Below are positions 1,753 to 32,291 of a stretch of 32,291 nucleotides of DNA, one piece after another (the first letter of the stretch is position 1; the number at the start of each line of letters is the position of its first letter). This DNA is from Candidatus Campbellbacteria bacterium RIFOXYC2_FULL_35_25. Lineage in GTDB: Bacteria; Patescibacteriota; Minisyncoccia; Phycocordibacterales; UBA12079. A program made the translations under genes and the position numbers. The DNA is taken from positions 1 to 32,291 of the forward strand of contig MFAE01000011.1 in the NCBI GenBank assembly GCA_001774495.1, written 5' to 3'. Below the pieces are notes generated by a model that was given only the letters and a program-made list of their open reading frames with translations, did not search any database and had not been told where the DNA came from.

Positions 1753-1787
1753 CTATCGACTATAAACTACCAACTATAAACTCCTCC
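1753..1787. repeat. 7-nt-period array at the dnaN 3' end
   Basis: CTATCGA CTATAAA CTACCAA CTATAAA CTCCTCC; reaches the dnaN stop codon. Confidence 0.8.
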
Positions 1788-2887
1788 TAGCTATTCATCG
1801 GCATTACAAGATAAGTAAACCTACTATCAGGGACTCCTTTAATCACGAGAGGTTTATTGCTACCATTAAAATTCAAGACGAGACTGTCTGAATCTATTGA
1901 TTGAAAACAATCTATTATATATTTTTGATTAAAACTAATTTCTATCTCATCACCATTCAAAACACCTTCTATTTTGTTTAGAGTCTCCCCCACACTGTTA
2001 TTCTTTGCCACTATTTCAAAGATTTTTTTACTTGGGTTAATTTTAAAAGTTAACTTGTTAAATTGATCAGAAAAAATATTACTTATTTTTAAAGAATTAA
2101 TTAAATCTTCTTTTAAAACAGTTACGTCTGTTTTAAATTCTTTAGGAATAAGTTGTTGGTAGTCAGGGAAAACACCATCTATAATCCTAGATGTTAGATA
2201 AATATTTTCATATTCAAAAGCAATCTGATTTTTTGTTAAATAAACCTTAATATTTCCTTCAATATTATCAAAAATCTTTAAAATCTCTGCTACATTTTTA
2301 AACGGAATCAAAATTTGTTCAAACTGTTTATCAGAAGCTGTGTCAATCTTCATTTCAGCCAATCTAAAAGAATCTGTTGCCACAAAAGTTATATCTTTTG
2401 CACTACTATAAATCAAAATACTAGATAATTCTGGTTTAATATTTGATGTGGAAGAACTATACCAAACAGACCTTAATCCTTTATTAAGTTTTTTTGCATC
2501 AATTAAGAAAAATTCTCCATTATTTAGTTTTGGAATAGTCGGAAAATCAGCATTTGCTTGTAAATTTATTACAGTAGAATTATTTTCAGTTAAAACAACC
2601 AAGTTGTCACCTTTTTCTTCTAATTTAATATTTCCCTTTTTAAAATTATTAGAAATTAAACTATTTAGAACATTCCCAGGAACAGCCACCGTTCCCTCTT
2701 CTGTTATATTCGCGGGAACTATTATTTCCACTCCTAAATCTAAATTAGTTGCTATTATCTTTAAAGTATTTCCTTTTGCTTCCAATAACAAACAACTCAA
2801 AACAGGTAAGGTTAAATTCTTTCCTGTAATTTTTTCTGCTTTCGAAACAGCACTTAATAATTTTTCTACTGTACATTCTATTTTCAT
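1787..2887 (-). CDS. dnaN: DNA polymerase III beta subunit (sliding clamp)
   Basis: MKIECTVEKLLSAVSKAEKITGKNLTLPVLSCLLLEA... and C-terminal YLVMPM; next to dnaA. Confidence 0.96.
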   Translation of the reverse strand: MKIECTVEKLLSAVSKAEKITGKNLTLPVLSCLLLEAKGNTLKIIATNLDLGVEIIVPANITEEGTVAVPGNVLNSLISNNFKKGNIKLEEKGDNLVVLTENNSTVINLQANADFPTIPKLNNGEFFLIDAKKLNKGLRSVWYSSSTSNIKPELSSILIYSSAKDITFVATDSFRLAEMKIDTASDKQFEQILIPFKNVAEILKIFDNIEGNIKVYLTKNQIAFEYENIYLTSRIIDGVFPDYQQLIPKEFKTDVTVLKEDLINSLKISNIFSDQFNKLTFKINPSKKIFEIVAKNNSVGETLNKIEGVLNGDEIEISFNQKYIIDCFQSIDSDSLVLNFNGSNKPLVIKGVPDSRFTYLVMPMNS

Positions 2888-2898
2888 ATTATTTTTAA

Positions 2899-2933
2899 AG
2901 CTTACAGCTGGCAGCCCACAGCAGACAGCACTT
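2899..2933. repeat. 7-nt-period array (AGCTTAC family) upstream of dnaN
   Basis: AGCTTAC AGCTGGC AGCCCAC AGCAGAC AGCACTT. Confidence 0.8.
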
Positions 2934-2958
2934 CTTGTTTAAATAAATTTTAACTTTA

Positions 2959-4320
2959 TTAAAATATGGACCTTATTTGTTCAATCTCTTGTTCAAGAGA
3001 ATTATTTTTTTCTAATTCTTGTTTTATTTTTTTACAAGAGTGAATAACAGTCGTGTGGTCCCTTCCTCCTAATTTTTCACCAATTGATGGATAAGATATA
3101 TTAAAATCTTTTCTTAATATATACATAATTATCTGTCTTGGCTTAACAACCTCTTTCCTTCTAGACTTTTCATAAATACTGGACTCATCGATATTATAAA
3201 AGTCGGCAATAATTTTAACCACGTCTTTAACGGAAACCAATTTTTTTGGTTTTGAATTATTTTTTAGTAAGTTTTTTACTTCCCCCAAACTTAATTCCCT
3301 ATTTTTTAATTGGGTCTGACAAATAATGGAATTTAAAATACCTTCCAGATCTCGGATATTTGCATCTTGAGTCAATGAAGCTATAAAATTTACAATATCC
3401 TCATTTAAGTAGAAATTGTTTAATCTTGCCTTTGATTTCAGTATTTCGGCTCTTGATTCGTTGTCAGGAGCCTGAACATCCACAATCATACCCTGTCCAA
3501 ATCGTGATTTTAACCTATCGGCTAAACCTGGGATGTAACTAGGGTGTCTGTCGGATGAAAAGATGATTTGTTTGTTGCTGTCATAAAGAGTATTAAACAA
3601 GTGAAACAATTCTTCTTGGGTTCTCTCTTTGTTTGATAAAAACTGAATGTCATCCATAATCAAGACATCATATTTTCTATATTTTTCTTTAAAATAATTA
3701 ACTTTATTTTGTTGAATAGAATTTACACAGTCTATAGAAAATTTTTCAGAAGTAATGTAGAAAACCTTTTTAGCTTCATTCTCTTTCATATGGTTACCAA
3801 CAGCCTGAATTAGGTGAGTTTTTCCTAATCCAGTATTTCCATAAACGAAAAGTGGATTGTAGACGATTCCCTGCTTCTTAATAATTGCTTGGGAGGCAGC
3901 GTGAGCCAACTCATTAAATGATCCAATAATAAATGAATCAAAAATATATTTAGGATTTAGATTGTCTTCTTTATTTATATAAAAATCACTTAAAGGAAGT
4001 TCGCTGTTTATAATGCTTGATTGTTGATATTTTAAGCTTCCTTTCTTTTTAGTAGTGCTGTTAACAACAACATACTCAATATTTCTTATATTATTTTTTA
4101 AATTTCTTAAAGATTTTAAAATAAACTTGTGATATTTTTCAAGTAACCAGCTTTTAACAAACTCGTTCGGAACACTAAGAAAAACTACCCCATTTTCATA
4201 TTTAAGAATATTTGTATCCTTAAACCATGTACTAAAATTAGCCTTAGAAACACTCAACTCCATATCTAATAGAACTTTATCCCAAATTTTCTTATTATCA
4301 TCTAAAATTGTTGTATCCAT
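2959..4320 (-). CDS. dnaA: Chromosomal replication initiator DnaA
   Basis: Walker A GNTGLGKTHL, Walker B DVLIMDDIQF, C-terminal GGRDHTTVIHSCKKI DnaA-box-binding motif. Confidence 0.98.
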   Translation of the reverse strand: MDTTILDDNKKIWDKVLLDMELSVSKANFSTWFKDTNILKYENGVVFLSVPNEFVKSWLLEKYHKFILKSLRNLKNNIRNIEYVVVNSTTKKKGSLKYQQSSIINSELPLSDFYINKEDNLNPKYIFDSFIIGSFNELAHAASQAIIKKQGIVYNPLFVYGNTGLGKTHLIQAVGNHMKENEAKKVFYITSEKFSIDCVNSIQQNKVNYFKEKYRKYDVLIMDDIQFLSNKERTQEELFHLFNTLYDSNKQIIFSSDRHPSYIPGLADRLKSRFGQGMIVDVQAPDNESRAEILKSKARLNNFYLNEDIVNFIASLTQDANIRDLEGILNSIICQTQLKNRELSLGEVKNLLKNNSKPKKLVSVKDVVKIIADFYNIDESSIYEKSRRKEVVKPRQIIMYILRKDFNISYPSIGEKLGGRDHTTVIHSCKKIKQELEKNNSLEQEIEQIRSIF

Positions 4321-4587
4321 TTTATAAAAATAAGTTAATTATTAACTAATTACGGAAATACTTCAGAAGGAATATCTACATAAACATTTCCACTAATTAT
4401 ATACTTGTTGAAAGAATATGAAACTTGTTTCAGGTGTATTAATATGTTATTAACATGTGGATAACTTATTATCGACCATATTTTATATTTTGTAAATGAT
4501 ATTAAAATGCCCAACGAATTAAAGGTCTTTTTAATTTTTATAATAATACTTGCTACTTTTTACTTTATACTTTATACTCTTCCTATT
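4321..4587. promoter_or_regulatory. Putative oriC / divergent dnaA-rpmH regulatory region
   Basis: AT-rich gap between dnaA and rpmH. Perfect DnaA box TGTGGATAA (4456-4464) facing a one-mismatch box TTATCGACC (4469-4477). Confidence 0.55.
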
Positions 4588-4722
4588 ATGTCACAAACAT
4601 ACCAACCTAAAAAAGTAAAAAGAGCAAGGACCCACGGTTTTCTTGAAAGACAATCAACAAAGTCCGGTCAAAATATTATAAATAAAAGGAGAAGAAAGGG
4701 GCGAAAGAAACTTTCCGTTTAA
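4588..4722 (+). CDS. rpmH: 50S ribosomal protein L34
   Basis: [44 protein letters not shown] is L34-like. The ORF-track start at 4507 adds an implausible hydrophobic leader; internal ATG at 4588. Confidence 0.92.
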
Positions 4723-4748
4723 TTTTAACTTTTCAAAAACAATGACTA

Positions 4749-4781
4749 CAAAAAATTGCTTCGGCAATTTTTTGTTTTTTA
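4749..4781 (+). terminator. Rho-independent terminator after rpmH
   Basis: CAAAAAATTGC-TTCG-GCAATTTTTTG followed by TTTTTT; UUCG tetraloop. Confidence 0.8.
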
Positions 4782-4912
4782 TATTACCCAGGGCCAAATT
4801 TCCTTCAAAAAATCTTTTAAACTCGTCTATTATTCGGTCTTGTAAGCTTTAGTCATTACCTCACATCTTTTATTTAAACAAAAGGCAAATAACTATTTAC
4901 TCCTCAAGATTT

Positions 4913-4941
4913 TTGCAACAAATGGTGTGGGGGTTTATACT
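4913..4941 (+). promoter_or_regulatory. Putative sigma70-type promoter of rnpA (leaderless)
   Basis: TTGCAA (4913-4918), 17-nt spacer, TATACT (4936-4941); predicted TSS at the ATG (4949). Confidence 0.6.
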
Positions 4942-4948
4942 TATAATT

Positions 4949-5284
4949 ATGTTAAGTAAAAAAAGTAAAATAAGCAAAAAACTTTTTGATCAAGTCTTTA
5001 AGGAGGGCAAAGTTTATCACTCTGACTCTTTGTATGCAAAAATATTAAAAATAGGATTAGCTGAAGAAAATAAATTTTCTATTGTCGTACCTAAAAAGAT
5101 ATCCAAAAAGGCAGTTACCAGAAATCTTTTAAAGAGGAGGGGTTTTTTTATTTTAGAAAAACATCTAGAGAAAATAATCTCACCCTATGCCATAATATTT
5201 TTTTTAAAAAAGGAAATTGAATTTGAAGAATACGAAAAAGAAATTTTAAATTTACTTCAAAAATCAAAACTTCTCAATTCATAA
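4949..5284 (+). CDS. rnpA: Ribonuclease P protein component
   Basis: MLSKKSKISKKLFDQVFKEGKVYHSDS...SIVVPKKISKKAVTRNLLKRRGF; between rpmH and yidC. ORF-track start 4913 (TTG) overlaps the promoter. Confidence 0.92.
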   Translation: MLSKKSKISKKLFDQVFKEGKVYHSDSLYAKILKIGLAEENKFSIVVPKKISKKAVTRNLLKRRGFFILEKHLEKIISPYAIIFFLKKEIEFEEYEKEILNLLQKSKLLNS

Positions 5285-5322
5285 TTCTTGATTCTTGGCT
5301 CTATTTCATATAGAATAAGCCT

Positions 5323-6096
5323 ATGTTTTCATATATTTTTAACACATTTTTCTACAATCCTATCTATAATGGACTTATTTTCCTTGTATCTTATTTTTCG
5401 TGGATAGACCTAGGAATCGCAGTAGTTTTAATCACTATTATCGTAAAATTAATTCTTTTTCCACTAACAAAAAAATCTATCCAGGCTCAAATAAAAATGA
5501 AAGAAATTGAGCCTCGAATGGTTGAATTAAAGGAAAAATATAAATCAGACAAAGAAAAGCAGGCAAAAGAAATAATGGCCCTTTACAAAAATAACGGCAT
5601 AAATCCTTTCGCGAGTTTTCTTCTTGTTTTTGCACAACTTCCTATTCTTTTTGCCCTTTATTTTGTTTTTTTAAGTGGGGGTTTGCCAGAAGTAAACACG
5701 GACATTCTTTATTCCTTTATGAAAGTGCCGGAAGCAATAAATGTTCATTTCTTATTTATAGTTGATATAACTCAAAAAAGTCTCTTATTAGCCCTTCTCG
5801 CTGGAGCATCTCAATTTTTTCAAATAAGATTAATAATGCCAAAAACAGAGCCTAGTACAAATAAAGAAAAAACTCTTAAAGATGATTTGGTAAAGAATAT
5901 GCAGATGCAAATGAAGTATGTAATGCCTATTATTATATTCTTTATTGCTTATGGATTATCAGCAGCGATTGCATTATATTGGACAACCAGTAATTTATTT
6001 ATGATTGGGCAAGAATTATATATAAGAAAAAATATAAAAAACAAAACAAAAATAACCAAGAGCACTAAAGAAGTTAATTTAAAATATCATGGATAA
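5323..6096 (+). CDS. yidC: Membrane protein insertase YidC/Oxa1
   Basis: LITIIVKLILFPLTKKSIQAQIKMKEIEPRM...ELKEKYKSDKEKQAKE; YidC core and context. Confidence 0.95.
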   Translation: MFSYIFNTFFYNPIYNGLIFLVSYFSWIDLGIAVVLITIIVKLILFPLTKKSIQAQIKMKEIEPRMVELKEKYKSDKEKQAKEIMALYKNNGINPFASFLLVFAQLPILFALYFVFLSGGLPEVNTDILYSFMKVPEAINVHFLFIVDITQKSLLLALLAGASQFFQIRLIMPKTEPSTNKEKTLKDDLVKNMQMQMKYVMPIIIFFIAYGLSAAIALYWTTSNLFMIGQELYIRKNIKNKTKITKSTKEVNLKYHG

Positions 6097-6553
6097 TGAA
6101 ATTAATTTAATTAAGAATATAATCGAACAATTTCTGAAAAAATTAACAGTAGAGTTTGATGAAATTTATATAGATAAAGAAGATAAAAATAGTGTTAGAT
6201 TTGCTATAAAATCTAATGATTCTGGAATTTTAATTGGAAATGACGGGAACAACATCAAGGCTTTAAACCATATGATTAAACAAATTGCATGGAAAAACAA
6301 CAGCCTTGGAGAAAATATAAACTTTTTTGTAGACGTAAATGACTATCAATATAAGAATATAAAAAGAATAAGAGACAAGGCTCTTGAAATGGCAGAAAAA
6401 GCGATTATTTTTAAAAGAGATATTGAGCTTGAGCCAATGTCTTCTTTTGAAAGAATGCTTGTTCATTCGGCTCTCGCAGACAAACCAAACATAGAAACAG
6501 AGTCATCCGGAGACGGAATTTTTAGAAAAGTAAGTATAAAATTTAAAAATTAA
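6089..6553 (+). CDS. jag: Jag/KhpB-like KH-R3H RNA-binding protein
   Basis: KH GILIGNDGNNIKALNHMIKQ and R3H-like MSSFERMLVHSALADKPNIETESSGDG...RKVSIK; overlaps the yidC end. Confidence 0.88.
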   Translation: MDNEINLIKNIIEQFLKKLTVEFDEIYIDKEDKNSVRFAIKSNDSGILIGNDGNNIKALNHMIKQIAWKNNSLGENINFFVDVNDYQYKNIKRIRDKALEMAEKAIIFKRDIELEPMSSFERMLVHSALADKPNIETESSGDGIFRKVSIKFKN

Positions 6554-7869: not shown

Positions 7870-8253
7870 CTAAAAAGTGTCTGTGTGAGGAATAGCAAAA
7901 CTTGATCCAACTAAATCAGGGTTTATCGTCTGTAAAAGTAAATAAGAAGATAAAATAAGAAGCAAACCAATCAAAGCATTCTTGATAGTATCTTTTGCTC
8001 CAGCCTTACCAGTAAAAGATTCTTCTGTAATATATTTAAAACCACCAATAGATATCATCAGAACGGCCAAAACCATAGCCGAACCGATAGACACATTATA
8101 GATAACACTCAAATAGTCTCCTAAATCATTCACATTAGCATTCAAGCCAGGAATACTCGGTTCTAACAGAGTGTATGTAAAAGCGCTCGCTACACCAAAC
8201 TTCAAAAAAAAGGCTGGAATAATTATTAGTATATTTTTTAAAATCTTATTCAT
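7870..8253 (-). CDS. VirB2/TrbC-like pilin
   Basis: Signal-like N-terminus and two hydrophobic helices (SIGSAMVLAVLMISIGGFKYI; IKNALIGLLLILSSYLLL); position beside VirB4. Confidence 0.65.
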   Translation of the reverse strand: MNKILKNILIIIPAFFLKFGVASAFTYTLLEPSIPGLNANVNDLGDYLSVIYNVSIGSAMVLAVLMISIGGFKYITEESFTGKAGAKDTIKNALIGLLLILSSYLLLQTINPDLVGSSFAIPHTDTF

Positions 8254-8260
8254 ATTTTAG

Positions 8261-9283
8261 TTAAATATTATTAAATAAATTAGAGCCCTTTAATTCACCA
8301 AGGTTTATTTTTAATTGGTTATTTGCAAACTGCATTATCCTATTAAAATTTGTTATCCCTAAATTTAAATTAATTGAGCCACTTCCTTTTTCAGGCCTTC
8401 TTAGTGTCATTATATTATCCCCCTGGGCCTCCTCAATCTCTTTGTTATCGATAAGCCATTTATAAACCAAGTTTCCATTAAAGATATCGTCTTTTGAAAA
8501 GAAGAAGGGTTGAGCAACGATAGAGGCTTCTTCTTCGGTTAGAATAAAGGGTGTTTCTAATGCTTTTTCATAAACCACACCTAGTAAAGGATTTTTTTCA
8601 TAAAAAACTATTTCGGGACGAGAATAAACAACATTAAGATTTCCCCCAGCTAACATTTTTCCGTCTTTTGTCTCAACCTCAACACTTATTGTTTGATTAC
8701 TTGGGATTTTATTATCCTTTAGTATTAAAACATTCCTTCCAATACCGGAACTATCTCCTATTGCTCTCATATCTTTCTTCCACCGATAAATAAGATCTTT
8801 GGAATTTAAAAAGTAACCATTAGAATCAATAAAATTAGGAACAGCAATAATTTTTATATCACTTTGATACGAACTTAATGCCTTTCCTTTGTATAAAGGA
8901 GGGACGGAAGAATTAGCCTCCCAAAATAAATCAACCTCGGCAGGGGTAATCTCAATAATTTTTGTTAAAGTTCCTTTATTAGAAGTCTTTACTTGAATAT
9001 TTATTTTAACAGATGAACCCAATCCCCCCGCTTTAAAAGTAAAGCTATTAAGACCAAACCCTTTTTCTACCAAAGTACCATTTTTAAACCAAGAAGTTTC
9101 TGCTAAATTTAAATCTGTAACATAACTTTCAATACTCACCGAAAATTCCTGGTTTGGTTTAGGAAATTTTGGGTCAATTTTAACATAGAGGCTACTATCG
9201 GAACCTAAAAATTGCGCACTAGCCCAAAAAGGAAGAAAGAGGGCTCCAAGAAAAATTATTTTTTTTATTTTATTACTTAACAT
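8261..9283 (-). CDS. Secreted hypothetical protein with Ig/PKD-like beta segments, T4SS operon
   Basis: Signal peptide KKIIFLGALFLPFWASAQ; beta-rich body; operon context. Confidence 0.65.
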   Translation of the reverse strand: MLSNKIKKIIFLGALFLPFWASAQFLGSDSSLYVKIDPKFPKPNQEFSVSIESYVTDLNLAETSWFKNGTLVEKGFGLNSFTFKAGGLGSSVKINIQVKTSNKGTLTKIIEITPAEVDLFWEANSSVPPLYKGKALSSYQSDIKIIAVPNFIDSNGYFLNSKDLIYRWKKDMRAIGDSSGIGRNVLILKDNKIPSNQTISVEVETKDGKMLAGGNLNVVYSRPEIVFYEKNPLLGVVYEKALETPFILTEEEASIVAQPFFFSKDDIFNGNLVYKWLIDNKEIEEAQGDNIMTLRRPEKGSGSINLNLGITNFNRIMQFANNQLKINLGELKGSNLFNNI

Positions 9284-9313
9284 GATTTTAATAATATTAT
9301 AACATTTTAAATA

Positions 9314-11128
9314 TTATGTTGTAGAGGCTAAATCTTTTTTGGCTTGCTTGATAGCTAATATTTGTGAAGGATCGGATGTAATAATTTGGTCTTCAATGTA
9401 AGAAGCCACTATTTTTATGGCAACATGTTTTAACCCCGCAAAAAATATACCCTCTCCGAGATCAGACTCTAATAACAAAAATTTCTCCTCATCAGTTAAA
9501 TTAAAAGTTTTTTGAACCACGTCAATCGTTGTTGGGGATTGTTTTAATAATAACTGAATAGAAGAGTTTGTTATAATAGGAAGACCATAAGGGGAATGAA
9601 GGAAATCATTAACATCCTGAGTTATTGTCGCCAAACCAAGATAATATTTTCTACCTCTTTTTGCCATTCCAAACAAGAAAGAAGCAGCGTCTTCAGATTT
9701 CATCATCTGCCAAGCCTCATCAATAACTAACAGTCTCTTTTTTAATTCTTTTCTAACAGCGTTCCAAACATAGTGCGTAATAAGATACATGGCTACTGGC
9801 CTCAATTCATCCTCCATGTCCCTGATAGAAAAAACGATGAACTTGTTATTAATATCAACGTTGGTTGGTTTGTTAATAAAACCGGCCCATGTTCCGCTAG
9901 TGTATTTAGATATTTTTTGAACCAAATCGCTTGTCCCTTCCATACCAGACAAAACCATCTCAAAATCAGAAAGAAGGGGGGGTTCAATGTTAGAAAAATC
10001 AGAATCAGGCGTAATATCCTTCAAAGCATATGTTTCTGTTATAGCCCTATCGATAATAGCGTCTTCTGAGGGGGAAAGTCCTCCAAGCATAATCCTAAAA
10101 AGTCCCACGAGGTTTACCGTGTGTGAACGCAAAACATTAGAAGGGGTTTCTTCTTCTCTTGGGATAGGTAAATCAAAAGGATTAATATGGTGGTTAGAAG
10201 CAAGGGATATATCAAAATATCTTCCTCCCATAGCTTCCGCCAAGAAACCAAACTCTTTTTCTGGGTCAATAACAATAACATCAATATCAAACATTAGAGA
10301 TCTCAAAATCTCTAATTTCACAGCGTAAGATTTTCCTGCTCCTGATTTAGCAAAAGTAACTGAATTATAGTTAGCTAAAGAGAATCGATCAAACAAAATC
10401 AAACTGGAATTATGTCTATTTATTCCAAACAAAATCCCTTTATCCGAAGTTAGATCAAAAGAAACAAAAGGGAAAATACTCGATAATGGGGAGGAATTTA
10501 ATTTTTGGTGAACACCTAATTGGTCATCTGCTGTGGGTAAAATACTCTTAAAACCTTGTTCTTGTTGAAAAAGTGCTGGTCTAATATAAATAAGTTTTGA
10601 TTCTAGAATAGACCTTATTTCCGATTCTACTTTGTTTAATTCGTCGTCAGAGTTCCCATAAACAGAAATATAAATACCCACATCAAAAAGCTTTTCTTCT
10701 GCTTGTTGAAGCTTGTCTCTTAATTCTTCGAGGTTTTGATAGGCAGCATCTAGCCCAGGGTCTCTAACAATTCCCTTTTGTTCCCGGGTCATTATCTGAC
10801 TTTGAACCTCCGCAACCTTTTTTTGGAAGTGTCTCAAAATCGTCGCTGTTTCAATTGGGTGAACATAAATAGCCACATCAAACTCTTTGTCTAAATTAAT
10901 TACTGGAGAAAACCAGTTATCTGTAAGAAACTTGGGGTAGGATATAACAAAAAATGTTCGGGCCATCTTTCCTCCGAGGTTAATATCTTTGGGAGAAATT
11001 TTTAAAGCTGAAGGAGCAATAACATCCTTCATTTCCAAAACACTTGCCTCATAAATCTCTTGCGGTAAGATGGGTGTTATCTCAATTTTGTTATTTTTAC
11101 TTCCTAAAATTTTGTCTATCAAATTCAT
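9314..11128 (-). CDS. VirB4/TraC-family T4SS ATPase (ATPase domain)
   Basis: Walker A FAKSGAGKSYAVKLEIL, DVIVIDPEKEFGFLAEAMGGRYFDIS, Walker B RLLVIDEAWQMM, TITQDVNDFL. Confidence 0.92.
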   Translation of the reverse strand: MNLIDKILGSKNNKIEITPILPQEIYEASVLEMKDVIAPSALKISPKDINLGGKMARTFFVISYPKFLTDNWFSPVINLDKEFDVAIYVHPIETATILRHFQKKVAEVQSQIMTREQKGIVRDPGLDAAYQNLEELRDKLQQAEEKLFDVGIYISVYGNSDDELNKVESEIRSILESKLIYIRPALFQQEQGFKSILPTADDQLGVHQKLNSSPLSSIFPFVSFDLTSDKGILFGINRHNSSLILFDRFSLANYNSVTFAKSGAGKSYAVKLEILRSLMFDIDVIVIDPEKEFGFLAEAMGGRYFDISLASNHHINPFDLPIPREEETPSNVLRSHTVNLVGLFRIMLGGLSPSEDAIIDRAITETYALKDITPDSDFSNIEPPLLSDFEMVLSGMEGTSDLVQKISKYTSGTWAGFINKPTNVDINNKFIVFSIRDMEDELRPVAMYLITHYVWNAVRKELKKRLLVIDEAWQMMKSEDAASFLFGMAKRGRKYYLGLATITQDVNDFLHSPYGLPIITNSSIQLLLKQSPTTIDVVQKTFNLTDEEKFLLLESDLGEGIFFAGLKHVAIKIVASYIEDQIITSDPSQILAIKQAKKDLASTT

Positions 11129-11140
11129 AATATTGAATGG

Positions 11141-11767
11141 TTAATTAATTTTTATTGGCTTTTCTGATTCTCCTGGATTAAACATCTTATAAAGCAATTC
11201 TATTATTTCTTCTGTTCCCAATCTCGCCAACCTAAGTCCTGTTCGAGATATCCCTTGTTCAATAACGCTTACTCTTTGTTCTAACTGTGATCTATTTTCC
11301 TCAAAAGCTTCGGCATCATCAAGCTTTTTTGTTTCTACTGTTGATTTTTTGAAAAGACCTTTTGTTCCTTTCGCGGAAATAGTTGGGGAATAAGAGGTAA
11401 CAATAAAAAAGTTTTTTGACATAATGCTTACGCTGTCCGTAAAATTTTTTATAAATTCGATGTATTCATGTGTTTGAATTTTAATAAGATCATTTGTTTG
11501 CTCTTTTCTTTTTGCTTCCATCATAGCTATATAGGGTCTAATATCTAAACGTCTCGATTGAACAAAAATTTGAACAGAAAAATCAAGAGAATTCAAGAAA
11601 TTTTGAAACTGCATAATTATAGCAGTCTGCTCATCTTCAGATTTTAAGGCAAAGTTTAAAGAGGAAACCATAGAAACAGCTCTTAAAGAGTTATTTTTTA
11701 GAACCATAACCCCGTCTCTTACTTCTTTAACGGGTACAAAATTTTGTGCGGCATCTGATTTAGGCAT
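11141..11767 (-). CDS. VirB4/TraC N-terminal-domain-like protein encoded separately
   Basis: FVPVKEVRDGVMVLKNNSLRAVSMVSSLNFALKSEDEQTAIIMQFQNFLNSLDFSVQIFVQSRRLDI matches the usual N-terminal region of VirB4/TraC ATPases; 12-nt gap to the ATPase ORF. Confidence 0.75.
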   Translation of the reverse strand: MPKSDAAQNFVPVKEVRDGVMVLKNNSLRAVSMVSSLNFALKSEDEQTAIIMQFQNFLNSLDFSVQIFVQSRRLDIRPYIAMMEAKRKEQTNDLIKIQTHEYIEFIKNFTDSVSIMSKNFFIVTSYSPTISAKGTKGLFKKSTVETKKLDDAEAFEENRSQLEQRVSVIEQGISRTGLRLARLGTEEIIELLYKMFNPGESEKPIKIN

Positions 11768-11841
11768 AAATATTCATTAATTCTTACTATAAATTGATTA
11801 CTAATCATCTACTATGATAACATTTATTTTGATTATCATAC

Positions 11842-12327
11842 TGTTTAAAACACAATAAAAATAAAACACAAAATCCAAACAAAACACAAACCACAAAAAC
11901 TAAACTTCTTTCTGATTATTTGCCTTTACTATTATAGCAGACAATATATTACGAATTTCTATGATTTCCTGAAAAAGATTTCTCATTCTTGCTGACATTT
12001 TAGGGTTGGCTTCTTCTATTAATTCTAACCAGTGTTGTGTTTCTTTTGATTCTTTTCTAGCTATTCGTAAACGAAAACTAAAATCTTTTTTACCCAAAGC
12101 TTCGTTTGTCTCTCGATAATTTGCACCAACAGAACCTGACGACCTAATAATTTGATCTACTAAACGATTGTTTATCCTGTCTTTTGGTAATTCTTTACAT
12201 AATCTTATGATTCTTTTTGCAAAATCTGTCGTTCTTTGCTCAAACTCTCTATAACTATTTTCTTTTTGTGCTTTCATGTTTTGTGTTTTGTTTGGATTTT
12301 GTGCTTTTGAATTTGTGTTTTTTAAAC
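11842..12327 (-). mobile_element. Candidate inverted-repeat-bounded four-helix-bundle cassette 1
   Basis: 24-nt perfect inverted repeat CACAAAATCCAAACAAAACACAAA (11867-11890 vs 12280-12303), extended imperfectly outward, enclosing ORF 11900-12277. Confidence 0.5.
11900..12277 (-). CDS. Four-helix-bundle protein (23S rRNA IVP/S23 family)
   Basis: REFEQRTTDFAKRIIRLCKELPKDRINNRLVDQIIRSSGSVGANYRETNEALGKKDFSFRLRIARKESKETQHWLELI is characteristic of the family. Confidence 0.9.
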   Translation of the reverse strand: MKAQKENSYREFEQRTTDFAKRIIRLCKELPKDRINNRLVDQIIRSSGSVGANYRETNEALGKKDFSFRLRIARKESKETQHWLELIEEANPKMSARMRNLFQEIIEIRNILSAIIVKANNQKEV

Positions 12328-12332
12328 AACAA

Positions 12333-12764
12333 CTAGTTATTATTCATATCGTCAACCAACTTGTCTTTAATATCCAAACTCCAACCTAGTTCTGATAATT
12401 TACTATCTGACAACTTTGGAATTTGCATCCCCAAAATTGGGTCTTCACTTTTTTCATCTCCTTCGCTATTTTTCTTTTTCTTTTCTGTTCTTTTTTCCCA
12501 TATATATAATTTACTCCCTATCACATACCGAAAAGCTGATTCCATTTGCAGGATAAAAGGTTGGCTGTTTGGTTTATAAAAAGCAAGAGCAAGTCCTAAA
12601 CCCAAGGAAGGAATTATAAGAATAAAAGAAATATAGATGGGGAGGAATTTAAAGAAAATAAAACCTAGCCCAGCCCCACCAGCTACATAAATAAACTGTT
12701 TTATGGTTAGAGGACCTACTATTTTATCCTCTATCTCTATAAATTGTGGAACTTGAAATTTCAT
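12333..12764 (-). CDS. PrgI family protein (T4SS)
   Basis: MKFQVPQFIEIEDKIVGPLTIKQFIYVAGGAGLGFIFFKF...: PrgI-like N-terminus and paired TM helices. Confidence 0.85.
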   Translation of the reverse strand: MKFQVPQFIEIEDKIVGPLTIKQFIYVAGGAGLGFIFFKFLPIYISFILIIPSLGLGLALAFYKPNSQPFILQMESAFRYVIGSKLYIWEKRTEKKKKNSEGDEKSEDPILGMQIPKLSDSKLSELGWSLDIKDKLVDDMNNN

Positions 12765-12770
12765 TTTTTG

Positions 12771-13180
12771 AGTTTACAGTAAACAGTTTACAGTTTACAG
12801 TTTTTTAATTAATGATTCTAACATCCTCTGAACCTCTTTTAATAATAAATTGACTTCACTATCTTCTTTTTTGTAAATATCTTTAACTAATAAGATTTGT
12901 GTCTCTAGTTCGGCTAACGAACCCGATGCTATCCTTAAAAACTGGTTAAAATCTTTCTTGGTTCTTCTTTTCGAGCCCTCAGCTATATTAGAAGGGGTAG
13001 AAACAGCGCATCTTCTTATTTGGCTTATCAAACCAAACCTTTCTTCGTTAGGTAGTTTTTCGGTAAATAGATAAATTAACCTTGCTAACAACATTGCTTT
13101 CTGCCATACAATTAATTTTCTAAAATCACTCATAATTTTCTGTAAACTGTTATCTGTAAACTGTAAACTGTAAACTTTTC
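12771..13180 (-). mobile_element. Candidate inverted-repeat-bounded four-helix-bundle cassette 2
   Basis: (AGTTTAC)n at 12771-12805 and its reverse complement (CTGTAAA)n at 13140-13174 flank ORF 12795-13133. Confidence 0.5.
12795..13133 (-). CDS. Four-helix-bundle protein (IVP/S23 family), second paralogue
   Basis: MSDFRKLIVWQKAMLLARLIYLFTEKLPNEERFGLISQIRRCAVSTPSNIAEGSKRRTKKDFNQFLRIASGSLAELETQI. The first 25 residues of the track ORF (start 13208) read the repeat, so start revised to 13133. Confidence 0.92.
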   Translation of the reverse strand: MSDFRKLIVWQKAMLLARLIYLFTEKLPNEERFGLISQIRRCAVSTPSNIAEGSKRRTKKDFNQFLRIASGSLAELETQILLVKDIYKKEDSEVNLLLKEVQRMLESLIKKL

Positions 13181-13182
13181 TA

Positions 13183-13728
13183 CTAAACCGCTTCTCGGTA
13201 AGGATCAATTCCTCCTTCCTCTTTTATCTCCTTTTCGGCCATGGGCATTTTGATAACCCCTTCTAATTTATTCTCTACTATGCTCTTTTCTTTTTCTACA
13301 TGACCATGATCACCCAAAGGATTTTCAATCTCATTTAAAACCTTTTCTCTATCCAAAAATTCATCTTGTTCGTCTGTTTCTTTGTTTCTTTGTTCGGATG
13401 TCATCCTGTTTTCTTCATAAATTTTTCTAAGGGAAAAACGAATTTTTAAAAAGATTTTTTCGTTTAAATCCTTTACTATCTTTTCAGCTTGGTCTCTTGA
13501 GAGTTCTAATTCTTTCCTTATTTTATTTAAAAAATCATCGCTATGTGTGATGGCCAACATAACCAAACCAGACTCATAAATTAATTTATCAATTTGTTCG
13601 TGGTTTAATTCATATTTTTCCCCTATATCAACAATAATATTACTCGTATCAACAGATGAAATAGCCTCCCTTACATCATTAGGTAGTGCTTCAAACTTTT
13701 TTTGTATTTCTTCTTTTGTGTGTTCCAT
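13183..13728 (-). CDS. Conserved hypothetical protein of the T4SS-like operon
   Basis: Long helical ORF in operon context; no family recognised. Confidence 0.7.
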   Translation of the reverse strand: MEHTKEEIQKKFEALPNDVREAISSVDTSNIIVDIGEKYELNHEQIDKLIYESGLVMLAITHSDDFLNKIRKELELSRDQAEKIVKDLNEKIFLKIRFSLRKIYEENRMTSEQRNKETDEQDEFLDREKVLNEIENPLGDHGHVEKEKSIVENKLEGVIKMPMAEKEIKEEGGIDPYREAV

Positions 13729-13752
13729 ATTATTGTTTATTAGTTTTTAGAA

Positions 13753-15687
13753 TTATTTTTTCTTCTTACTACCACCTCCTGCCTGTTCAGCTTTTTTCTC
13801 TTCTCCTTTTAATTTATTAGCTTCTCCTTCCAATTTTTTAATTTCCTTTTCTTTATTAAAAATTTCATCCCTTAAGCGCCCAGTCTCATTATCATCCTCT
13901 TTCGCTATAGAGGCTTGCTTCAAATCCTTAAGTTTTTCTAATTCTTTTTTAGATTTTTCTAGTTCCTTTGATTTTTCTGATAATTTTTCAGCACTATCAA
14001 GATATGCCTTTCGTCCAGAATCAGCAAGAGTAGCCCCCCTGGTAGCACGCTGACCAGCAAATGCTCCAACGACCCCTCCAATAGCTCCTCCCATAACAGT
14101 ACCTATTGGTCCAGCAACAGAACCGAGAACAGCCCCTGTAGCAATCCCTCCTGTAGCGCCAGTCGCACTACCCCCAACCTCAGCAGTCCTTCTCAAAAGA
14201 TTAGGTAGAACGCCCTCTTCTCTCCATTTTTGTTTAGCCTTTTGGTTCTCTCTGTATTTTTCTTGGGCACTTTTCGTCATTATTGGATTATTCTGATCAT
14301 CAAAAGATAACTCGCCATAAATGTCTCTTTCTTGTACCTTCTTGCCTGATAAAGATTTTTCGTACGCAGTATGTCCAGCTCTCTGGCTCGCTACTCTTTG
14401 GGTATATCCCTCCTTCATTCCAAATTTCTTATTTCCTACAGCCCTAAGGGTCTGTAATTTCATTTTTCCATAAGTAGTATCCCCCTTTCCTTCTTTCTCC
14501 ATTTGGTCAGCCTTCCTAGCCGCATATCCACCGACCGCACCCCTAGCAGCATAACCAGCAACTCCCGCCCCTGTGGCAATCGCAGCAACTTTTGCCATAC
14601 CCATAACCTTAGCCCCCACCCCTCCGTCACTACATTTCTTTCTTGTTTCCTCTAACCCTGTTCTAAACAAAGTTATTACTAAAATAAACTGCATTACAAC
14701 CATCATCATAATTTCTATAAATTTCATTTCATTCATAGATGGTTTAAAAAGAGAACTATAAAAATTACTATGAAGAATTCCGAGTGTTAACCATATAAAA
14801 AACAAAAAAATAACAAGGCAAAAAGCTTGATCAAACAACTTTATCCACCACCGATTCCATAAACTCTTTGTCCCAGGCATGGTAAAAGAGATAAATGCCA
14901 AGGGAGAAATAAGCATCAAAAGCCACAGCCATATAACCCTAACCACAACAATAAAACTCGCCAGGGCGAACAAATAGGAAAGATACAAACACATGGCCGC
15001 AGACACGATATAAATAATAGCTAAAACAGCCACGCTCCCCCCTTCATCATTAATCCATGCTGTTAAAGCTGTGCCACTGACTATATTTGAAGGTTCAAAA
15101 GCATTTCTAATAGCAGAGGCAACATCTTTTTGAGCCAAAATACCCGAAGGAACAGGGGGGCCTGCTGGTGCATCAATTGCATCATAAAACCCTAAGGTAA
15201 AGATATTCCCAGCATCAATAACAATCCTTGAGGCAAATAGGCTAAAATTAATCAGCAGGGCAATAATGATAACATCTATTATTAGTTTTTTTTGAGCAAA
15301 CTTGCCAAAATCTAAAATTATAGAAATGGAAATAGCAATCAACACAAAAATAAACATCATATTGGCAAAATCCCTAAGATTATCCCACGCAGTATTTACA
15401 AAGGAGGCATTCAAAACACTCGAGCTCATAGACCAAACGAGAAAGTAGTTAAAAATACCGGCGGTCACCTTTAAAACAAAAGCAGCTGGTTTATAAAAAA
15501 TTTCTTCTGCTATTACAACCAAACAACCTTCAACAGAAAAATTAATAGGATGAAGAAACATATTACATGTTAGTTTTGTTACATCTATTGGTGAAGCGTG
15601 AGCAACACTAGCACCAATAGGAGCAAAAACTCCCACCAAAACAACAAAAAAGAATATTAGAATAAGAAATTTTTTTTTCATTACCAT
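13753..15687 (-). CDS. VirB6/TrbL-like polytopic membrane protein with charged Gly/Ala C-terminal tail
   Basis: Signal peptide, several TM helices (FANMMFIFVLIAISISIIL, LIIDVIIIALLINFSLF, FIVVVRVIWLWLLMLISPLAF), C-terminal glycine-zipper-like GSVAGPIGTVMGGAIGGVVGAFAG and Lys/Glu coiled coil. Confidence 0.8.
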   Translation of the reverse strand: MVMKKKFLILIFFFVVLVGVFAPIGASVAHASPIDVTKLTCNMFLHPINFSVEGCLVVIAEEIFYKPAAFVLKVTAGIFNYFLVWSMSSSVLNASFVNTAWDNLRDFANMMFIFVLIAISISIILDFGKFAQKKLIIDVIIIALLINFSLFASRIVIDAGNIFTLGFYDAIDAPAGPPVPSGILAQKDVASAIRNAFEPSNIVSGTALTAWINDEGGSVAVLAIIYIVSAAMCLYLSYLFALASFIVVVRVIWLWLLMLISPLAFISFTMPGTKSLWNRWWIKLFDQAFCLVIFLFFIWLTLGILHSNFYSSLFKPSMNEMKFIEIMMMVVMQFILVITLFRTGLEETRKKCSDGGVGAKVMGMAKVAAIATGAGVAGYAARGAVGGYAARKADQMEKEGKGDTTYGKMKLQTLRAVGNKKFGMKEGYTQRVASQRAGHTAYEKSLSGKKVQERDIYGELSFDDQNNPIMTKSAQEKYRENQKAKQKWREEGVLPNLLRRTAEVGGSATGATGGIATGAVLGSVAGPIGTVMGGAIGGVVGAFAGQRATRGATLADSGRKAYLDSAEKLSEKSKELEKSKKELEKLKDLKQASIAKEDDNETGRLRDEIFNKEKEIKKLEGEANKLKGEEKKAEQAGGGSKKKK

Positions 15688-30986: not shown

Positions 30987-31529
30987 TTATTTCTTCGCGA
31001 CTCTTCTTTTCCTATTCCCTTTGTAGCCCATTAAATATTTTGAGTGTTCTTTATCTAGGTCCATAAAATCGTCAGCCTTTTCCATTAACTTTGATGACGA
31101 AGATCGTCCGAAGGAAACAACTTCAACTTGGCAACCTTCATTCATTTGTAAATATTCTACAAGAGGAATAAAATCTCCGTCCCCTGAGACAATAATAATT
31201 GTATCTAACTTTGGTGCCATCTTAACAGCATCAATGGCAAGACCAACATCCCAATCGGCTTTTTTTGCTCCGCCAAAAAATATTTGTAAATCTTTTGTCT
31301 TGGCTTCTATTCCTAGTTTTTCGAGAGCTTCAAAAAAAGTAGATTCTTCTCCTGACTCGGTTGTGATTACATAAGCAATCGCACGAATCAAAGCTCTATC
31401 CCCCACCGCATCATCCATTATTTGTTTAAAGTTTACTTTTGCTTTGTAAAGATTTTTTGCACTGTGGTATAAATTTTGGGCATCAATAAAAACCCCAACC
31501 CTTTGTTCTTTGTGTTTTGTTATAGACAT
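30987..31529 (-). CDS. NYN-domain (LabA/DUF88-like) protein, putative nuclease
   Basis: RVGVFIDAQNLYHSAKNLY, DWDVGLAIDAVKMAPKLDTIIIVSGDGDFIPLVEYL. Confidence 0.9.
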   Translation of the reverse strand: MSITKHKEQRVGVFIDAQNLYHSAKNLYKAKVNFKQIMDDAVGDRALIRAIAYVITTESGEESTFFEALEKLGIEAKTKDLQIFFGGAKKADWDVGLAIDAVKMAPKLDTIIIVSGDGDFIPLVEYLQMNEGCQVEVVSFGRSSSSKLMEKADDFMDLDKEHSKYLMGYKGNRKRRVAKK

Positions 31530-31537
31530 ATTTTTTG

Positions 31538-31572
31538 AGCTTACAGTAGACAGCTTACAGCTTACAGCTTTT
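31538..31572. repeat. 7-nt-period array (AGCTTAC family) upstream of the NYN gene
   Basis: AGCTTAC AGTAGAC AGCTTAC AGCTTAC AGCTTTT. Confidence 0.88.
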
Positions 31573-31600
31573 GAAAAATTTGCGAAGCAAATTTTTCAAA
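31570..31600. repeat. 14-bp perfect hairpin with GAA loop
   Basis: TTTGAAAAATTTGC-GAA-GCAAATTTTTCAAA, directly abutting the heptamer array. Confidence 0.92.
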
Positions 31601-31703
31601 CCATCGACTATAAAGTATTAAAATATTTCTGCCAATATATAGTTTATTTTTGGCGGAAAAAATTGATAAAATGTATAAAAATTTGTACTTAAAGTACTTA
31701 AAT

Positions 31704-31752
31704 AAGTATAGAGTATCAAGTATCAAGTATCAAGTAACGACTAATAAGTGAT
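31704..31752. repeat. 7-nt-period array (AAGTATC family)
   Basis: AAGTATA GAGTATC AAGTATC AAGTATC AAGTAAC GACTAAT AAGTGAT. Confidence 0.85.
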
Positions 31753-31840
31753 TAATAGAAAAGCTTACAGTTTATTCCACGCCTTTCTTTTGGAAAATAA
31801 AGGTGTGGGTGTTTATAGATAACAGCTTCCAGAAAATTTC

Positions 31841-31869
31841 TTGACAAAAGGTTGACTTTGGTATATAAT
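31841..31869 (+). promoter_or_regulatory. Consensus sigma70-type promoter
   Basis: TTGACA (31841-31846), 17-nt spacer, TATAAT (31864-31869). Confidence 0.88.
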
Positions 31870-31908
31870 TATCGTGTAATTTAGCTCTTTGATTTAACTA
31901 CTTACGAG

Positions 31909-32020
31909 TGGTCATAGCTAAAAGATTTTATAAAACACTAATTCATAAAAAATGAATGGGCAAATGAAATTTTTTGGCTATGACCAATTGGTGGAAGTAG
32001 CACACCCTCAAATAAGAGGG
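31909..32020 (+). ncRNA. Structured 5' leader (candidate cis-regulatory RNA)
   Basis: 23-bp stem 31909-31931/31964-31986 (3 G-U wobbles), internal hairpin ATTCAT-AAAAA-ATGAAT, then CCCTC-AAATAA-GAGGG (32005-32020) upstream of SD AGGAG (32033-32037). Confidence 0.65.
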
Positions 32021-32044
32021 AAAAATTAGAATAGGAGAAAACTC

Positions 32045-32291
32045 ATGGAGAAGACCTATGATGGACAGACAGCAGCTTTTTTGGCAGCTGTGGCAACTTG
32101 TATGCCGAGGAATATGAGTTCTGAGGTTATGCAAGGGTGGATTACAGACCTTACTGGATTGAAAAAGATTTTGGCAGAGGCATTTTGTCCGCCATCGCAG
32201 AACTACATCACCCACACCTTCACAATTTTGGTCGACGAGACCAAGACTGTGGAGGAGCTGGTTGTCGAAGGGAACTATGATTGGAGTGACA
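32045..32291 (+). CDS. Hypothetical protein, C-terminus truncated by window edge
   Basis: AGGAG then ATG; open to the end: MEKTYDGQTAAFLAAVATCMPRNMSSEVMQGWITDLTGLKKILAEAFCPPSQNYITHTFTILVDETKTVEELVVEGNYDWSD... Not in the ORF track (no stop). Preceded by a strong promoter and leader. Confidence 0.85.
   Translation, partial: MEKTYDGQTAAFLAAVATCMPRNMSSEVMQGWITDLTGLKKILAEAFCPPSQNYITHTFTILVDETKTVEELVVEGNYDWSD

Follow-up and report, generated by a model that had tools for sequence, protein, structure and literature searches.

Among known systems, the leader reported here is closest to those of antiterminated transcripts, in which a boxA sequence lies just past the promoter. In nut sites, NusB-S10 takes the boxA and another factor takes the hairpin that follows it (PMC10250234, PMC12691694), and in rRNA transcripts boxA accompanies long processing helices (PMC10250234). 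The boxA consensus GYTCTTTAANA is a gamma-proteobacterial one (PMC5725501), and boxA can also be found in the 5' UTR of a protein gene, as in the suhB mRNA of E. coli, where it lies at most ~50 bp from the start codon and acts on translation, which a boxA in an mRNA leader can repress (PMC5725501). In the LoaP/dfn leaders, which belong to long polyketide operons, an elongation factor recognises a small UNCG hairpin upstream of terminators (PMC12691694). With regard to the genes, the closest systems are the diversity-generating retroelements (DGRs) of Patescibacteria, assigned to clade 2 in PMC8144416, in which a target gene with a C-terminal variable region (VR), a template repeat (TR) and a reverse transcriptase (RT) follow one another in this order, the VR and TR differing by adenine-specific mismatches. 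CPR bacteria have many DGR targets, which are hypermutable, of blank function and without recognisable domains (PMC8144416). The main text of that study contains neither the word "promoter" nor the word "hairpin" and describes no target leader.

Our study analysed a stretch of 32,291 nucleotides, hereafter the window, which is the entire contig C11 (MFAE01000011.1) of the 782-kb, 15-contig genome of Candidatus Campbellbacteria bacterium RIFOXYC2_FULL_35_25. At its right end lies an element that we identify, with near certainty as to its identity and structure, as the 5' leader of the mRNA of DGR target genes in Paceibacteria/Parcubacteria (CPR). At the gathering threshold, Rfam 15 contains no family for the window, and 20 leader loci returned tRNAs only; in a permissive search the leader matched mainly microRNA models, at scores well short of their cut-offs, and these matches were dismissed as chance. 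We found no description of the leader in the open-access literature either, and it appears to constitute an uncatalogued family of boxA/hairpin leader RNAs in an unexpected place. The rest of the window includes dnaN, dnaA, L34-like, rnpA-like, yidC-like and jag-like ORFs in this order (1787-6553), which we take to be the usual replication-origin region. A cluster on the minus strand (7870-15687) resembles by eye a type IV secretion/conjugation apparatus, with a VirB4-like ATPase at 9314-11767 and two small ORFs of apparent four-helix-bundle type, also judged by eye, at 11900-12277 and 12795-13208. A gene for an NYN-domain protein (30987-31529, minus strand; PF01936, 1.6e-35) is divergent from the leader.

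The leader and all its parts lie on the plus strand. Transcription would start from a sigma-70-type promoter (31841-31869) that matches the consensus at 12/12 positions and can be read directly in the sequence, with the -35 box TTGACA at 31841-31846, a 17-nt spacer and the -10 box TATAAT at 31864-31869. Thirteen nucleotides past the -10 hexamer there is a boxA-like element, AGCTCTTTGAT (31883-31893), resembling the boxA of the 16S leaders of relatives. It is followed by a long hairpin, P1, supported by sequence, fold and covariation, whose 5' arm TGGTCATAGCTAAAAGATTTTAT (31909-31931) pairs with the 3' arm ATGAAATTTTTTGGCTATGACCA (31964-31986) over 23 pairs, a few of them G-U. Behind P1 come a segment, GGTGGAAGTAGC (31990-32001), that can serve as an alternative partner of the P1 3' arm, a second hairpin, P2, of the form CCCTC-AAATAA-GAGGG (32005-32020), and a Shine-Dalgarno (SD) sequence AGGAG (32033-32037) ahead of the ATG at 32045. 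The SD is thus ~50-60 nt away from P1, and the boxA-like element ~160 nt upstream of the start codon. The promoter, the stem, P2, the SD and the start codon had all been placed in this way in a preliminary description of the locus, and each is indeed present. That description also pointed to a perfect ATTCAT-AAAAA-ATGAAT hairpin in the P1 apical loop (31932-31963); the hairpin exists in the window (31941-31957) but falls outside the conserved element, since it is not conserved in other copies, among which the loop ranges from 2 to 55 nt. At the position of P2, hairpins are found in many copies, without conservation of their sequence. The RNA of 31875-32060 folds at -53.7 kcal/mol, compared with -29.0 +/- 3.7 in shuffled sequences (z = -6.59; 0/200 shuffles as good), and P1 dominates the full-leader folds (mean 0.92).

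To evaluate the stem, we relied on its other copies. A first covariance model, built from 7 copies of relatives, gave 5 compensatory pairs with 96.9% of the cells paired. The model was rebuilt with 81 copies, including 3 reverse-strand matches to the palindrome. In this alignment 18/23 pairs show double changes, the cells with such changes numbering 243 where shuffling gives 80.5 (0/500), and slid controls collapse; in 27 later copies that were not used in the models, the figures are 14/23 pairs and 101 against 29 cells (0/500). The alignments of the later copies were obtained by fitting to the model, and the sequences are related, so that these values are not to be read as probabilities. The size of the effect and its recurrence in the second set make a chance origin of the covariation implausible. 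The suggestion of a cis-regulatory RNA was to be given up if covariation and conservation upstream of homologous genes were lacking; the stem passes this check, which strongly supports a leader RNA that is conserved and acts in cis.

An inverted repeat just behind a promoter might instead act at the level of DNA, as an operator palindrome, a cruciform or a recombination site that aids the exchange of target genes between loci, and this would agree with a leader that remains similar in front of exchanged genes. We nevertheless consider a DNA element very improbable. G-U wobbles are conserved (G60-U186 in 69/80, U65-G181 in 61/80), an A-C mismatch is common and the length of the apical loop is variable, and for these reasons we read P1 as RNA rather than as a DNA operator; the compensatory changes are a further argument, and a boxA makes sense solely as RNA.

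The leader is frequent in one part of the bacterial tree. It was identified with the first covariance model in 62 of the 397 genomes of the order, and with the 81-copy model in 60 of the 387 genomes of the class and in 11 of the 382 genomes of a phylum sample, five of these eleven being outside the class. The covariance-model search found it in none of 50 control genomes from elsewhere, which had been chosen for the chance presence of a 16-mer of the stem; they came from a scan of genome contigs for the exact stem 16-mer, whose matches were mostly chance ones outside CPR. The public records with matches are named as Paceibacterota, Parcubacteria, Harrisonbacteria, Taylorbacteria, Vogelbacteria, Lloydbacteria and Jorgensenbacteria. 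At least a hundred copies were found here in total, two of them in the genome of the window. Among 89 leader copies, 74 have a -10 box with at least 5/6 matches, and 59 of these also have a -35 box with at least 5/6.

The second copy in the same genome, on contig C8, revealed which kind of gene the leader precedes. Promoter (again 12/12) and leader recur there at 85-91% identity, and the N-terminal coding parts are unrelated, which indicates that the leader is retained in front of different genes. On C8 the order is a target gene of 184 aa with a VR, a strong terminator, the TR, a second terminator and the RT (C8:10318-11379; RVT_1, 2.3e-25; PHROG reverse transcriptase, 6.7e-104), 1.49 kb behind the leader. 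Seven of the 8 mismatches between the 3' end of the target gene and the TR are located at template adenines, and a further VR, on contig C6, also differs from the TR mostly at adenines. By its organisation, this cassette is a diversity-generating retroelement with two variable regions. At locus L006, strong terminators are present behind the target gene (4507-4548) and behind the template repeat (4930-4951), before the RT at 5319.

The gene of the window itself is interrupted by the assembly. Its ORF (32045-32291) comprises 82 codons and is open at the contig end, and its last 89 bases (32203-32291) are identical to C8:9018-9106, inside the other target gene, so that the assembly breaks within a repeat. 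It is therefore not the small-protein gene of the preliminary description, which had also overlooked the boxA-like element, the DGR context, the second copy and the truncation, but the 5' part of a DGR-type target gene. One end of contig C6 holds the open 3' end of a homologous gene, whose first base there corresponds to a position 155 bp further along the C8 gene. Most likely this is the 3' end of the window ORF across a collapsed repeat of 155 bp, a joining that we infer; counting the bases places the two halves in frame, for a predicted protein of ~197 aa, to which the VR at the end of C6 most likely belongs. No DGR-type RT was identified at this end of the window's own contig.

The association holds beyond this genome. 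The ORFs behind 89 leaders (median length 206 aa) include 62 that form one similarity cluster, and 25 of 26 from the second set match the first set. Every examined leader with a nearby RT (18/18) has a VR/TR pair, with 260 of 293 mismatches at TR adenines; in these 18 cassettes the template is usually ~320-370 nt behind the stop codon and the RT lies mostly 1.48-1.63 kb from the leader. An adenine-biased VR at the 3' end and a DGR-type RT close by are thus found both on C8 and in all 18 cassettes, and in the case of the window gene the VR is the one on C6 that most likely belongs to it. The genes behind the leader mostly represent one modular protein group, whose 3' ends are adenine-mutagenised VRs where an RT is adjacent. 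These targets had no match in Pfam, NCBIfam or PHROG, and an AlphaFold2 model of one family member (mean pLDDT 54.5, below 50 in the variable end) was too weak for the structure comparison that would address the question of a C-type lectin fold. Across the 397 genomes of the order, 40 have both the leader (called at the model threshold) and a DGR RT (called at E <= 1e-12), 22 the leader alone, 130 the RT alone and 205 neither, a co-occurrence with an odds ratio of 2.9 and p = 1.6e-4, uncorrected for relatedness. Because 22 genomes with the leader lack an RT match and 130 with an RT lack the leader, the leader belongs to the target genes and not to the retroelement, and by these counts it is not an obligate part of a DGR.

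Some copies are found in other settings. At L196:5001-5092 (minus strand), a leader is followed after ~10 nt, without an intervening target gene, by a DGR reverse transcriptase that lacks part of its N-terminus. Genes that are not DGR-target-like follow two 65-bit copies, a membrane protein at L091:1826-1900 (minus strand) and a short ORF at L103:1413-1492 (plus strand), as well as another well-scoring copy, before a membrane-protein or short ORF, at L197:3768-3840 (minus strand).

Special attention was given to the start of the leader. Nearly all copies begin with the boxA-like AGTTCTTTGAT, of the form A-G-T-T-C-T-T-T-G/A-A; no other unpaired part of the leader is as well conserved as this element, whose positions 2 (G), 5 (C), 7 (T) and 8 (T) are nearly invariant. 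Its median distance is 11 nt from the -10 box and ~12-13 nt from P1. The 16S leaders of relatives carry a boxA word with the same variants, TGTTCTTTGAAAA and TGTACTTTGATAA, and 10 of the 17 that were tested do so clearly (p < 0.05; combined p = 6.6e-11), so that the element is both close to the expected transcript start and common to the rRNA leaders of the same lineage. In the 16S leader of the window's own genome, GTTTCTTTGAAAAC lies shortly behind the -10 box, as a weaker match that is not significant alone. At locus L265, a sequence like a type III hammerhead ribozyme (4508-4562, minus strand; 42.3 bits, E = 3e-8, below the Rfam cut-off of 48.5) adjoins a leader at 4440-4509 (minus strand) and ends at the start of its boxA; such a ribozyme might cleave the RNA immediately ahead of the leader.

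Since a boxA directly past the promoter and a conserved hairpin together reproduce the layout of a nut site, a Nus-type ribonucleoprotein may form on the leader, and we give a boxA/Nus-type mechanism a chance somewhat short of even. Once RNA polymerase has left the promoter, boxA would be bound by NusB-S10, and P1, ~12 nt past it, by a second factor, as at a nut site, where boxA is followed by the boxB hairpin. The resulting complex could modify elongation and/or shield, fold or process the long leader and would in this way set the expression of the diversified protein as a unit; where terminators separate target, TR and RT in a cassette, the leader could also determine read-through into the TR and the RT. 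The position of boxA just past the promoter, the hairpin ~12 nt further on, the order of the two and the boxA variants in relatives' 16S leaders are all shared with nut/rRNA antitermination leaders. There are also differences: the hairpin has ~23 bp, whereas boxB is short, the target genes are short, no N-like protein is known here, and the order in E. coli rrn leaders is boxB-boxA-boxC. The boxA complexes of the rRNA type in E. coli mainly counter Rho and, given also how short the target genes are, there is no obvious need for processive antitermination. The resemblance to LoaP/dfn lies in a leader hairpin and in downstream terminators, and no sequence relation between dfn and the DGR leader was seen.

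The segment behind P1 is often similar to the 5' arm of P1 and thereby offers the 3' arm another partner. With its own downstream sequence the 3' arm pairs better than with shuffled ones (p = 2e-13), and somewhat better than with the downstream segments of other copies (p about 0.002-0.01, among related sequences); compensatory partners, A/U to G/C, were also seen. This alternative pairing, P1', is moderately supported and is a plausible second state of the leader, and it points to P1 being opened or cleaved at some stage. We also considered a leader devoted to processing or stability. In this reading, P1 would be a site for a double-strand-specific nuclease of the RNase III type or a hairpin that protects the 5' end; after cleavage its 3' arm would refold as P1', so that the mature mRNA keeps a 5' hairpin, and boxA would aid co-transcriptional folding as in rRNA. 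Several features are consistent with it: the stem is long and almost perfect, a mismatch in it is common, its 3' arm keeps a second partner just downstream, and boxA accompanies the processing helices of rRNA. Neither a nuclease site nor a generic protective stem, however, would require the ~11 bp of sequence conservation seen in the lower stem, and we judge this possibility rather unlikely.

Two mutually exclusive pairings in a conserved, covarying leader also recall a riboswitch, which the preliminary description had raised as a possibility. A leader that senses a small molecule found no support and is extremely improbable: there is a single imperfect hairpin with a variable apical loop and no multi-helix pocket, no clear sequestering of the SD and no Rfam match, no terminator (a GC-rich hairpin followed by a U run) was detected in 31500-32291 of the window, and the target genes have no common metabolic function. 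A different form of translational control, by a protein (a Nus complex or a regulator of the diversified protein) or a ligand on boxA/P1 that governs the access of ribosomes to the SD, is closer to the suhB case and would be helped by the hairpins between P1 and the SD. Compared with those of the suhB type, the leader boxA is much further upstream and is followed by a covarying hairpin. We regard translational control of this form as unlikely: the SD is far from P1, and complementarity between leader and SD (3.2 nt against 2.9 nt expected) is hardly above chance. With the same figures, an anti-SD role of the CU-rich tract 3' of P1 was dropped, and an ACTTGC stretch 5' of P1 that seems by eye to pair with the SD region in some copies is absent in the window.

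Taken as a whole, the explanation of a DGR-target 5' leader whose nut-like boxA and hairpin act on elongation, stability or translation is in our estimate evenly poised between right and wrong. Its more ambitious extension is doubtful: a dedicated, bistable leader, with boxA and P1/P1', through which the Nus machinery would be coupled, across Paceibacteria, to how hypermutated proteins are expressed and, in cassettes, to read-through into TR and RT as well, as the first expression-control element known to be common to cellular DGR targets.

Roughly every sixth genome in a large group of ultra-small bacteria has the leader at the head of DGR gene messages, and the common occurrence of this leader implies that expression of DGR targets is probably under a shared mechanism. 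It provides a sequence handle for diversified genes even where an RT is lacking, and it takes boxA outside rRNA in a lineage of which few members are in culture. When and how these organisms make their diversified proteins thereby becomes a testable question.
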